This document shows positions 2,645-55,880 of a stretch of DNA of 64,000 nucleotides, in pieces. Source of the DNA: Synechococcus sp. UW105 (lineage in GTDB: Bacteria > Cyanobacteriota > Cyanobacteriia > PCC-6307 > Cyanobiaceae); assembly GCF_900473935.1 (NCBI RefSeq), contig NZ_UCNN01000008.1:124001-188000 (forward strand), read 5' to 3'. The notes beneath the pieces are model-generated. The model did no database searches and was not told the origin of the DNA. It saw only the letters and a program-made list of their open reading frames with translations. The stretch's first letter is position 1. Each line of letters opens with the position of its first letter. A program made the translations under genes and the position numbers.

Positions 2645-3751
2645 GTGTCTCTGCTGCAGAACCTCCGCAGGCGTCTGATCACCGGACCCGTCATGCAGGA
2701 CTGGCCCGGCCTGATTGAAGCCTATCGAGGCTGGTTGCCGGTTTCAGATGCCACGCCTGTGGTGACCCTGCATGAAGGTGCCACTCCCCTCATTCCCGTC
2801 CCTTCGGTGGCCGAAAGGATCGGTCGAGGCGTCAAGGTCTACGTCAAATACGACGGTCTCAACCCCACCGGCTCCTTCAAAGACCGGGGCATGACCATGG
2901 CAATCAGCAAAGCCAAGGAAGTCGGCTGTGAAGCAGTGATCTGCGCCAGCACGGGCAACACGTCCGCAGCCGCAGCCGCCTATGCCCGGCGTGCCGGAAT
3001 GCGGGCGTTTGTCTTGATCCCAGATGGCTATGTCGCCCAAGGGAAACTGGCCCAGGCCCTCGTCTACGGAGCTGAGGTACTGGCCATCCGTGGCAACTTC
3101 GACCGTGCTCTCGACATCGTGAGGGAAGCAGCCGAAAGCTATCCGGTCACCCTGGTGAACTCGGTGAATCCCTACCGCCTGCAGGGTCAAAAAACCGCTG
3201 CTTTTGAGGTGATTGATGCCCTTGGCAATGCCCCCGATTGGCTTTGCATTCCGATGGGGAATGCCGGCAACATCACGGCGTATTGGATGGGCTTCCAAGA
3301 GTATTACCAGGCAGGCCACAGTCGCACACTGCCCCGAATGATGGGTTTCCAGGCCAGCGGATCAGCTCCTCTCGTCCACAACACCACCGTGGAGGATCCC
3401 AACACCATCGCCACCGCGATCCGAATCGGTAACCCGGTGAACCGAGACAAGGCTCTTGCCGCCCGCGAAGGCAGCAACGGCGCCTTCCTCGACGTCACCG
3501 ACGCCGAAATCATCGAGGCCTACAAGCTGCTGGGTGGCCAAGAAGGGATCTTCTGCGAACCAGCCAGCGCTGCCTCCGTCGCAGGTTTGCTGAAGCGGTC
3601 TGCCGAAGTGCCTGAAGGGGCCACGGTGGTGTGTGTACTGACCGGCAATGGACTCAAGGATCCGGACTGCGCCATCAATAACAACGATGCCGCCTTCCAT
3701 ACAGATCTGGATCCAAATCTCGAGACCGTGGCCAAGGTGATGGGTTTCTGA
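2645..3751 (+). CDS. thrC: Threonine synthase
   Basis: The 368-residue PLP enzyme converts O-phospho-L-homoserine to threonine, the last step of threonine synthesis. The PLP-lysine motif GSFKDRGMT is at residues 76-84, with Lys79 the Schiff-base lysine. ASTGNTSAAAAAYA follows as the substrate-binding segment, GNAGN is the phosphate-cup region, and CVLTGNGLKD is near the C-terminus. Length is that of the short bacterial ThrC class. The start used is GTG at 2645; an in-frame ATG at 2693 (MQDWPG) would also keep the whole fold. The gene ends 30 bases before a strong terminator, so it closes the leftmost forward block. Confidence 0.95.
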   Translation: MSLLQNLRRRLITGPVMQDWPGLIEAYRGWLPVSDATPVVTLHEGATPLIPVPSVAERIGRGVKVYVKYDGLNPTGSFKDRGMTMAISKAKEVGCEAVICASTGNTSAAAAAYARRAGMRAFVLIPDGYVAQGKLAQALVYGAEVLAIRGNFDRALDIVREAAESYPVTLVNSVNPYRLQGQKTAAFEVIDALGNAPDWLCIPMGNAGNITAYWMGFQEYYQAGHSRTLPRMMGFQASGSAPLVHNTTVEDPNTIATAIRIGNPVNRDKALAAREGSNGAFLDVTDAEIIEAYKLLGGQEGIFCEPASAASVAGLLKRSAEVPEGATVVCVLTGNGLKDPDCAINNNDAAFHTDLDPNLETVAKVMGF

Positions 3752-3783
3752 GCCGAGCAGCTCTGGATCAATCTCTCGATCTG

Positions 3784-3806
3784 GCCCCTCTACGTAGGGG
3801 CTTTTT
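3784..3806 (+). terminator. Rho-independent terminator after thrC
   Basis: The arms GCCCCT (3785-3789 with the preceding G at 3784) and AGGGGC (3796-3801) form a GC-rich stem, followed directly by five T residues at 3802-3806. It is 32 bases past the thrC stop codon and separates thrC from the candidate replication origin. Confidence 0.8.
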
Positions 3807-3879
3807 GATGGGTCGACGTCACTCTGAGAGGTTGCTCTTCGGCGAACCACCCGACAAAGCGGCTGCGGAAGACGCCAGA

Positions 3880-4217
3880 AAAGCCACAAAAAAATGGTGG
3901 AAAACGGCTGACAACTCCCCCCGGCTCGACAAGTGATTCTTTCCCCAGGTTGTGGAAGCTGTGCAAAACGAGAGGTTCTCCGCATTCGCTGAAGCCACTT
4001 CCCCAGGCCTGTGAAAGCAACCAATCAGGATCCAACTGGATTCTGAACGGTTTTCCACGCTTTCCCCAGGACCGACTACGGCTGTTTTGTTTGGTTTTAA
4101 AAATCATCAAATCCAAAAGACGGATGATGCCGATCCAAATGCTCTGGCCGTTGCACATCTCCTCAGCCTGTGAAACCGTGGGAACTCTTCAGGACACTTG
4201 GTCGGGACGTTGACTCC
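3880..4217. other. oriC: Candidate chromosomal replication origin (oriC) upstream of dnaN
   Basis: This gene-free stretch lies between the thrC terminator and dnaN. It holds near-matches to the cyanobacterial DnaA box TTTTCCACA: TTTTCCACC on the minus strand (3896-3904), TTTTCCACG on the plus strand (4051-4059), and a weaker minus-strand GCTTCCACA (3951-3959). The 9-mer TTCCCCAGG occurs exactly three times (3941, 3999, 4062), twice followed by a related TGTG-G/A-AA block. An AT-rich tract at about 4084-4120 could be the unwinding element. Established knowledge: in Synechococcus elongatus the origin is next to dnaN. That this stretch is the origin here is inference from position and motifs. 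Confidence 0.65.
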
Positions 4218-5393
4218 ATGAAACTGGTCTGTTCCCAGGCGGAGCTCAATACAGCCCTCCAACTGGTAAGTCGTGCTGTGGCATCTCGCCCAACCCACCC
4301 GGTGCTGGCCAATGTTCTGCTCACTGCTGATGCAGGCACGGGTCGCCTCAGCCTCACCGGATTTGATCTCAATCTCGGCATTCAGACTTCGCTATCGGCA
4401 TCGGTTGAAGCGAGCGGCGCCGTGACACTGCCTGCCCGTTTGCTAGGCGAGATCGTTTCACGGCTTTCTGTTGATTCACCAATCACCCTGGCCACAGATG
4501 AAGCTTCCGAGCAGGTCGAGCTCACCAGCTTGAGCGGCAGCTACCAAATGCGCGCCATGCCGGCTGATGAATTTCCTGATCTGCCGCTGGTTGAAAACGG
4601 CACCGCTCTGCGTGTGGATGCAGTCTCGCTGGTTCAGGCTCTGCGAGGAACCTTGTTTGCGAGTAGCGCTGACGAAGCAAAACAGCTCCTCACAGGCGTT
4701 CACCTTCGCTTCGAAGGGCGTCATCTCGAAGCGGCGTCTACCGATGGCCACCGTCTTGCCGTTCTGACGGTGAACGATGCGTTGCAGGACGATCCAACCG
4801 CCGCTGGATCAGCGGAGGGGATCACGTCTGACGATGGTTCTCTTGCTGTCACCCTGCCAGCTCGTTCCTTGCGTGAGGTGGAGCGTCTGATTGCTGGCTG
4901 GAAAAGTGATGATCCTGTCACGCTCTTTTATGACCGCGGCCAGGTGGTTGTGCTCGCAGCTGACCAGATGGTCACGAGCCGCACCTTGGAAGGCACCTAT
5001 CCGAATTATCGGCAGCTCATCCCCGATGGGTTCACCCGCACGATTGATTTGGAACGCCGTCCATTCATGGCGGCCTTGGAACGGGTGGCCGTGCTTGCTG
5101 ATCAGCACAACAACGTGGTGAGGATCAGCACGGATCCCACTGCGGGTCTGGTGCAGATCAGTGCTGATGCACAGGATGTGGGTAGTGGATCGGAATCACT
5201 ACCGGCCACGCTCACTGGAGAGGCTGTGCAGATTGCCTTCAATGTGCGCTATGTCCTCGATGGCCTCAAAGCCATGGAGGGAGATCGGATCTCGCTTCAA
5301 TGCAATGCCCCAACCACACCGGCGATCCTCACACCCGCCGATAATGCAGCAGGGTTCACCTATCTGGTGATGCCCGTTCAGATCCGCAATTGA
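4218..5393 (+). CDS. dnaN: DNA polymerase III beta subunit (sliding clamp)
   Basis: A 391-residue ring-forming clamp that tethers DNA polymerase III and binds many replication and repair partners. The N-terminus MKLVCSQAEL begins the first of three clamp domains; a TDGHRLA motif lies in the middle domain and the C-terminus YLVMPVQIRN corresponds to the conserved clamp ending. I chose ATG 4218 because it matches the family N-terminus; an upstream in-frame GTG at 4170 would add 16 residues that fit no clamp. The gene lies next to the candidate origin, as expected in marine picocyanobacteria. Confidence 0.97.
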   Translation: MKLVCSQAELNTALQLVSRAVASRPTHPVLANVLLTADAGTGRLSLTGFDLNLGIQTSLSASVEASGAVTLPARLLGEIVSRLSVDSPITLATDEASEQVELTSLSGSYQMRAMPADEFPDLPLVENGTALRVDAVSLVQALRGTLFASSADEAKQLLTGVHLRFEGRHLEAASTDGHRLAVLTVNDALQDDPTAAGSAEGITSDDGSLAVTLPARSLREVERLIAGWKSDDPVTLFYDRGQVVVLAADQMVTSRTLEGTYPNYRQLIPDGFTRTIDLERRPFMAALERVAVLADQHNNVVRISTDPTAGLVQISADAQDVGSGSESLPATLTGEAVQIAFNVRYVLDGLKAMEGDRISLQCNAPTTPAILTPADNAAGFTYLVMPVQIRN

Positions 5394-54683: not shown

Positions 54684-55880
54684 TCAAGGTGCAGTGCCGA
54701 TTGCTTCAGCCTGGGTCTTGGTCCAGGCGGAGGTGCAGAGAATGCGGTTGCGATCGCAACGGTCGGCGTAGCGCGTGGCGATTTCCACCACTTCCTTCAG
54801 CAGACCATCATCAAGGGTCGTGGGATTGAGGCCGAGCTCGAGGAAGCAACGGTTGTCCACGATCAGATCGTTTTCCACAGCCTCGTTACGAGGGTTGGGC
54901 AAGTTGTTCACCTGGGCTCCGGTGAGTGCGGCCACCTTTTTGGCCAGCTCGCCCACTTGATGGCTTTCGGTCATCTGGTTGAAGATCTTCACCCGCTCGC
55001 TTTTGCTGGGGGGGTTCTCCAGAGCGAGCTGCACGCACTTCACCGAGTCGCGGATGTGAATGAAGGCCCGGGTCTGGCCGCCGGTGCCATGCACGGTGAG
55101 CGGATAGCCGATGGCCGCTTGCATCAGGAAGCGGTTGAGAACAGTGCCGTAGTCGCCGTCGTAATCAAAGCGGTTGGTGAGACGCGGATCCCTATCGGTG
55201 GCATCGGTATTGGTGCCCCAGACGATGCCCTGGTGCAGGTCGGTGATGCGGACGTTGTCGTTCTTGTTGTAGTAGAGGAAGAGCAGCTGATCGAGCGTCT
55301 TGGTCATGTGATAGACGCTGCCAGGGCTGGCGGGGTGGAGGATCTCTTCCTCAAAGCGGCTGCCGTCAGGCTGCGGAACCTCCACTTTGAGGTAGCCCTC
55401 AGGAATGGTGGCTCCGCGGTGCGAGCCGTAGCCATAAACGCCCATGGTGCCGAGATGCACCACATGGATGTCTTGTCCGCTTTCGACGATGGCGGCCAGC
55501 AGGTTGTGGGTGCCGTTGACGTTGTTGTCGACCGTATAGCGCTTCGTGGCGCTGCTCTTCATTGAATAGGGAGCAGCCCGTTGCTCGGCGAAATGCACCA
55601 CTGCATTGGGTTTTTCTTCGATCAGTAGATCGAGCAGCCGTTGGTATTCGTGGGCGATATCCATGTGCAGGAAGCGCATGGGTTTGCCGCCGATTTCCTC
55701 CCACGCCTTCAGACGCTCGCCGATGCTGGTGATCGGGGTGAGCGATTCAACCTCGAGATCGATATCGATCTTGCGGCGACTGAGGTTATCGACGATCAGC
55801 ACGTCGTGACCCTGGTCCGCAAGATTCACTGCACAGGGCCAGCCGCAGAAGCCGTCGCCGCCGAGAACGAGAACCTTCAC
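54684..55880 (-). CDS. sqdB: UDP-sulfoquinovose synthase SqdB
   Basis: A 398-residue SDR enzyme that makes UDP-sulfoquinovose from UDP-glucose and sulfite. VLVLGGDGFCGWPCAVNLADQG is the Rossmann NAD loop, VVHFAEQRAAPYSMKSS the SqdB signature, and GSVYHMTKTLDQLLFLYY the catalytic YxxxK. The rest (NNVNGTHNLLAAIVE, FIHIRDSVKCVQLALENP) matches plant and cyanobacterial SQD1. The start is ATG 55880. It forms an operon with sqdX; a small Psb34-like gene sits just upstream on the same strand. Confidence 0.97.
   Translation of the reverse strand: MKVLVLGGDGFCGWPCAVNLADQGHDVLIVDNLSRRKIDIDLEVESLTPITSIGERLKAWEEIGGKPMRFLHMDIAHEYQRLLDLLIEEKPNAVVHFAEQRAAPYSMKSSATKRYTVDNNVNGTHNLLAAIVESGQDIHVVHLGTMGVYGYGSHRGATIPEGYLKVEVPQPDGSRFEEEILHPASPGSVYHMTKTLDQLLFLYYNKNDNVRITDLHQGIVWGTNTDATDRDPRLTNRFDYDGDYGTVLNRFLMQAAIGYPLTVHGTGGQTRAFIHIRDSVKCVQLALENPPSKSERVKIFNQMTESHQVGELAKKVAALTGAQVNNLPNPRNEAVENDLIVDNRCFLELGLNPTTLDDGLLKEVVEIATRYADRCDRNRILCTSAWTKTQAEAIGTAP

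Follow-up and report, generated by a model that had tools for sequence, protein, structure and literature searches.

The window analysed here is a stretch of 64,000 nucleotides (G000:C8:124001-188000) from the 2.66-Mb draft genome of Synechococcus sp. UW105, which is assembled in 31 contigs and whose closest match among named genomes is Synechococcus sp. UW140 (dnaN 99% identical). The region of interest sits in the spacer between thrC, encoding threonine synthase, and dnaN, encoding the DNA polymerase III beta clamp (Table 1). The dnaA gene lies elsewhere in the genome, in a single copy with an intact frame. The encoded DnaA has an intact domain IV signature, GGKDHTTV, and an alignment (numbering counted by hand) indicated that it keeps the equivalents of the B. 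subtilis trio-contact residues Asn187, Ile190, Ile193, Arg202 and Glu228. A search of the origin region for RNA families returned nothing above chance, and no plasmid copies of the region were found. Many deposited complete marine genomes, for example WH7803 (L284), begin 173 bp before dnaN, within the origin region; both ends of such chromosome records must therefore be joined for origin alignments.

Table 1. Features of the thrC-dnaN region, in window coordinates; origin elements are predicted. Mismatches are to TTTTCCACA and ranks are those of the alignment columns described in the text.
Feature	Position	Strand	Basis or remark
thrC (threonine synthase), upstream neighbour	2645..3751	+	NCBIfam TIGR00260, 333 bits (cut-off 167)
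Terminator-like hairpin 3' of thrC	3783..3802	+	Terminator scan, consensus match only
Weak DnaA-box column TCTTCCGCA	3864..3872	-	On average 2.95 mismatches across the 65 non-genus relatives
DnaA box R1, TTTTCCACC	3896..3904	-	Most relatives have a box in this column
DnaA box F1, CTTTCCCCA, holding the first 9-mer; C at position 7	3939..3947	+	Best column
DnaA box R2, TTTTGCACA	3960..3968	-	Exact TTWTNCACA; rank 5
DnaA box F2, ACTTCCCCA, second 9-mer; most degraded copy	3997..4005	+	Rank 3; commonest form in relatives TTTTCCACA
DnaA box F3, TTTTCCACG, upstream in the tandem pair; equivalent of B. subtilis box 6	4051..4059	+	Rank 4
DnaA box F4, CTTTCCCCA, third 9-mer; trio-proximal, equivalent of box 7	4060..4068	+	Rank 2
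Spacer GGACCGA, 7 nt	4069..4075	+	Equal length in 94/94 family genomes and most outgroup cyanobacteria
DnaA-trio element CTA CGG CTG (bottom 3'-GAT GCC GAC-5'); trio 2 centre C on the bound strand	4076..4084	+	Family alignment
AT-rich duplex-unwinding tract	4083..4119	.	AT 0.70 in 4080-4119, 0.40-0.55 in the upstream box array
Conserved weak DnaA-box-like site GGTTTCACA before dnaN	4169..4177	-	Mean 2.95 mismatches; GCTTCCACA in 21/65 relatives
dnaN (DNA polymerase III beta clamp)	4218..5393	+	TIGR00663, 324 bits (cut-off 138)

The initial annotation had proposed the spacer as a candidate oriC, and analysis of GC skew bore this out. Within a 164-kb portion of the contig, the cumulative skew reached its minimum at 4561, and all 8-kb bins were negative before 4001 and positive after it. 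Because the source genome is a draft, whole-chromosome skew was sampled in the complete genus-mate G101 using 20-kb samples. All 10 samples taken between -17 and -1186 kb of dnaN were negative and all 9 taken between +18 and +1209 kb were positive, with one sample near the terminus showing a skew of about 0. The skew thus switches at dnaN in both genomes. A DnaA-independent mode of replication had also been raised; the regular V shape of the skew speaks against it, since in cyanobacteria this shape accompanies DnaA-dependent replication (PMC7198777). With a skew switch, a DnaA-box cluster, an intact dnaA and an AT-rich element all present, it is very probable that the origin of the chromosome lies at this locus. 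The same data bear on the idea that the region is the promoter of dnaN, with DnaA boxes that regulate this gene and replication starting elsewhere or free of DnaA. Its position directly 5' of dnaN and the DnaA-free replication of some cyanobacteria (PMC7198777) fit such an arrangement, but the skew switches at this very locus in the contig and in G101, the trio element and AT-rich tract are conserved, and a promoter scan of 3700-4300 found no sigma-70-like promoter. We therefore regard a promoter-only role as very unlikely.

The feature that first drew attention to the spacer was a 9-mer, TTCCCCAGG. Its three copies were confirmed at 3941-3949, 3999-4007 and 4062-4070, all on the plus strand and spaced by 58 and 63, with no further copy in the window. 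The first two are followed by TTGTGGAAGC (3950-3959) and CCTGTGAAAGC (4008-4018), as had been stated, and both one-mismatch DnaA boxes reported at that stage, R1 and F3, are real. The exact TTWTNCACA match R2 had been overlooked. The AT-rich tract exists but does not adjoin dnaN as described, a gap of about 105 bp lying between them. Three copies of TTCCCCAGG per 64 kb are unremarkable alone, being reached in 9 of 100 shuffles, and the 38 copies counted in the 2.66-Mb genome are close to the dinucleotide expectation. They form a single cluster, at the origin; elsewhere two copies never occur within 3 kb, and simple arithmetic from the genome count gives about 1e-4 expected chance triples within 130 bp. 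When the known cyanobacterial DnaA box TTTTCCACA (PMC4674748) was used as the query, 8 matches of at least 7/9 fell in this one 340-bp stretch, compared with a mean of 0.67 and a maximum of 4 elsewhere in the window.

We aligned the regions upstream of dnaN from 95 family genomes, 28 of them from other genus members, and excluded one poorly fitting row, leaving 94. Mismatches to TTTTCCACA were then scored for each alignment position and strand (688 columns) in the 65 relatives that belong to other genera. Against a background of 6.67 mismatches on average (s.d. 0.90), the five best columns were 3939+ (1.37), 4060+ (1.94), 3997+ (2.08), 4051+ (2.17) and 3960- (2.26), figures that represent non-independent draws because family genomes share ancestry. 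Copies 1, 2 and 3 of the 9-mer along the window correspond to column ranks 1, 3 and 2. In each case the box begins 2 bp upstream of TTCCCCAGG, and the GG of the 9-mer is 3' flank. The initial annotation had made its proposal depend on conservation of the 9-mer in an alignment of the spacer. The exact 9-mer was poorly kept, in 15, 7 and 2 of the 29 genus members, so the repeat fell short of that test, whereas the underlying boxes were kept in place and in spacing. As judged from the aligned columns, TTCCCCAGG is the form that a conserved DnaA box takes in one strain.

These results left little room for a site read by an initiator or regulator other than DnaA, which had been put forward as one reading of the repeat. 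An exact threefold 9-mer in an origin without an exact TTTTCCACA would suit such a protein, but relatives have TTTTCCACA or one-off forms in those columns at the same spacing, the exact 9-mer is often lost even between genus members, its genome-wide frequency is that expected from dinucleotides with no second cluster, and a standard DnaA is encoded. The alignment columns and the genome-wide counts ruled this candidate out for us, and we give it next to no probability. The repeat is ordinary, consisting by prediction of degraded DnaA boxes within a conserved cyanobacterial origin. The sole exact TTTTCCACA of the window lies at 54871-54879, far outside the origin. Exact pairs occur elsewhere in the genome, at G000:C18:72833-72957 (116 bp apart) and G000:C26:18239-18291 (44 bp apart), where they may serve to titrate DnaA or mark genes under its control. 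Ahead of dnaN, at 4150-4185, most family genomes also have the conserved block GTTGC[AG]C...CTGTGRAA, which holds the weak minus-strand box-like site.

The boxes containing the 9-mer carry 2-3 mismatches to TTTTCCACA, F2 being the worst with 3, and F1, F2 and F4 all have C at box position 7. In the origins of E. coli, C. crescentus and H. pylori, this base is the hallmark of weak boxes of the ATP-DnaA type (PMC8235120), and the three repeats share it with them. Binding of DnaA at reduced affinity, suggested earlier for the repeat, fits these two properties. An "ATP-type box" may mean something else here, since S. elongatus DnaA unwinds in vitro with ADP as well as ATP (PMC8287927). F2 may be dead in this strain. 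A broader version of that view, in which the locus is oriC but all three degraded copies are neutral, unbound remnants of boxes, draws on the mismatches of this strain, above all those of F2, and on a weak drop of mean box quality with GC (rho -0.30). Against it, the TTCC..CA core and the spacing are retained in nearly all 94 genomes, and the C7 form recurs as TTTTCCCCA across many genera. We consider it unlikely that the copies are mere remnants.

The 3' end of the box array and the sequence beyond it have the layout of an unwinding module, the Basal Unwinding System (BUS). In 94/94 family genomes, the offset between F3 and F4 is 9 bp and the distance from the start of F4 to the first trio is 16 bp. 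The box-spacer-trio pattern has a single occurrence in the source genome, and the 30-mer richest in AT is 4083-4112. Outgroup cyanobacteria have the same layout in the form TTTTCCACA-TTTTCCACA-7 nt-CTACTACTA, which is likely to represent the ancestral form. For the BUS, tandem DnaA boxes must lie no more than 16 bp from the first trio (PMC8287927); here the first trio (4076) is 16 bp from F3, which ends at 4059, and 7 bp from F4. The BUS also calls for at least three consecutive 3'-NAN-5' trios. In the CTA register, the trio centres on the bound strand are A, C and A; a strict run of three is found only further on (GTT TTG TTT, 4084-4092).

This organisation resembles the B. subtilis BUS (boxes 6/7 plus trios) in its tandem, co-oriented boxes with the better box upstream, its short spacer, its trinucleotides opening with 3'-GAT-5' and the AT-rich tract beyond them. 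The two differ at the centre of trio 2 on the bound strand, which is C here and A in B. subtilis. The oriC of S. elongatus lies at dnaN and is bound by DnaA, and dnaA is essential in this organism (PMC7198777). On a scaffold with the boxes and trios of S. elongatus itself, its DnaA brings about unwinding (PMC8287927). The locus studied here is like the S. elongatus PCC 7942 oriC in its dnaN adjacency, skew switch and TTTTCCACA-type boxes (PMC7198777, PMC4674748), and matches in sequence the layout of that DnaA-dependent origin, for which box-plus-trio unwinding was obtained in vitro (PMC7198777, PMC8287927). Unlike those of PCC 7942, the boxes here are mostly 1-3 mismatches off TTTTCCACA, and trio 2 is CGG rather than CTA.

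Collectively, the skew switch, the conserved array and spacing, the trio element and the intact standard dnaA led us to infer DnaA binding, a ranking of affinities, unwinding and initiation at the locus. We estimate at roughly 0.9 the probability that 3864-4120 is the single oriC of the chromosome, with degraded boxes and trio-based unwinding by DnaA. In the mechanism that we propose, DnaA would bind an array in which 9-mer boxes face either way, with the degraded TTTTCCACA forms, including all three TTCCCCAGG copies, probably acting as weaker sites that are filled cooperatively. From the tandem pair F3-F4 (4051-4068), DnaA would extend on the bottom strand across the trios, and opening of the AT-rich tract by DnaA on the trios would allow helicase loading.

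Beyond the AT-rich tract, in 4097-4155 and the equivalent region of many family members, TAGAA/AGTAG motifs were observed, which correspond to trio-like CTTCTA/CTACT on the minus strand. Across 35 genera of the family, CTACTA, a motif picked after inspection, was enriched on the minus strand with a z of 6.9, compared with -0.7 on the plus strand, and a declared hold-out of 27 outgroup genera gave a z of only 2.0. The idea of an inverted ("mirror") trio past the tract held up poorly outside the family and is a lead only; the TAGAA-type element may belong to a promoter or represent a second trio in inverted orientation. An inverted repeat across the tract, GGCTGTTTT...AAAACAGCC, exceeded shuffles in 12/29 genus members and 4/6 members of group g5, but not in the strain of the window. 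Carriers of this type of repeat include L012-L014, L018, L020, L024 and others (groups g1 and g5).

The cytosine at the centre of trio 2 belongs to a wider pattern. In the 94 discovery genomes, the top-strand centre of trios 1-2 was a base other than T 65 times, comprising 60 G, 3 A and 2 C. A share of G above 80% was predicted beforehand for a hold-out of 40 further family genomes, many of them sharing genera with the first set, in which the finder was blind to the central base; the non-T centres were 34 G, 0 A and 0 C. Pooling the 134 family genomes, T was replaced by G in 94/99 replacements at trio centres. As a control, when T was lost from positions 2-4 of the tandem boxes F3 and F4, it was replaced by A 29 times, C 22 times and G 3 times. 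P values for the trio counts take each genome as independent and serve as no more than a guide; since the genomes are kin, counting changes on a tree is safer than counting genomes. On a dnaN tree (125 sequences, FastTree, one most-parsimonious reconstruction), the centres of trios 1-2 underwent 20 T/G exchanges and 3 other changes, and the outer bases of these trios changed mostly by transitions. Outside the family, the centres were T in 56/56 genomes scored, indicating that the exchange characterises this cyanobacterial family.

A top-strand G is a C on the strand bound by DnaA, so the change is from A to C, the one swap that B. subtilis DnaA tolerates. In that organism, Asn187 holds the central adenine of the trio via its amino group, cytosine can substitute for it and guanine and thymine do so poorly; the authors of that work noted that other DnaAs possibly read other sequences (PMC10721633). 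A partial search of the literature returned no report of natural cytosine-centred trios. We think it reasonably likely, from these substitution patterns, that Prochlorococcus, marine Synechococcus and Cyanobium relatives use cytosine-centred trios, and that the code would be 3'-G(A/C)N-5', read via the amino group of A or C.

A 9-mer repeat examined without relatives may be ordinary DnaA boxes seen in a shifted register. With relatives, a candidate oddity has become a mapped origin, predicted part by part at base level, in a group of phototrophs that is dominant in the ocean. What the trios add is a small and testable step beyond an established system. Their centres offer a natural test of the nucleobase-capture model, under which reading via the amino group should tolerate only A-to-C swaps, and these were nearly all that was seen in the 134 family genomes. 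If the cytosine-centred code is real, evolution would bear out a rule known until now from B. subtilis mutants.
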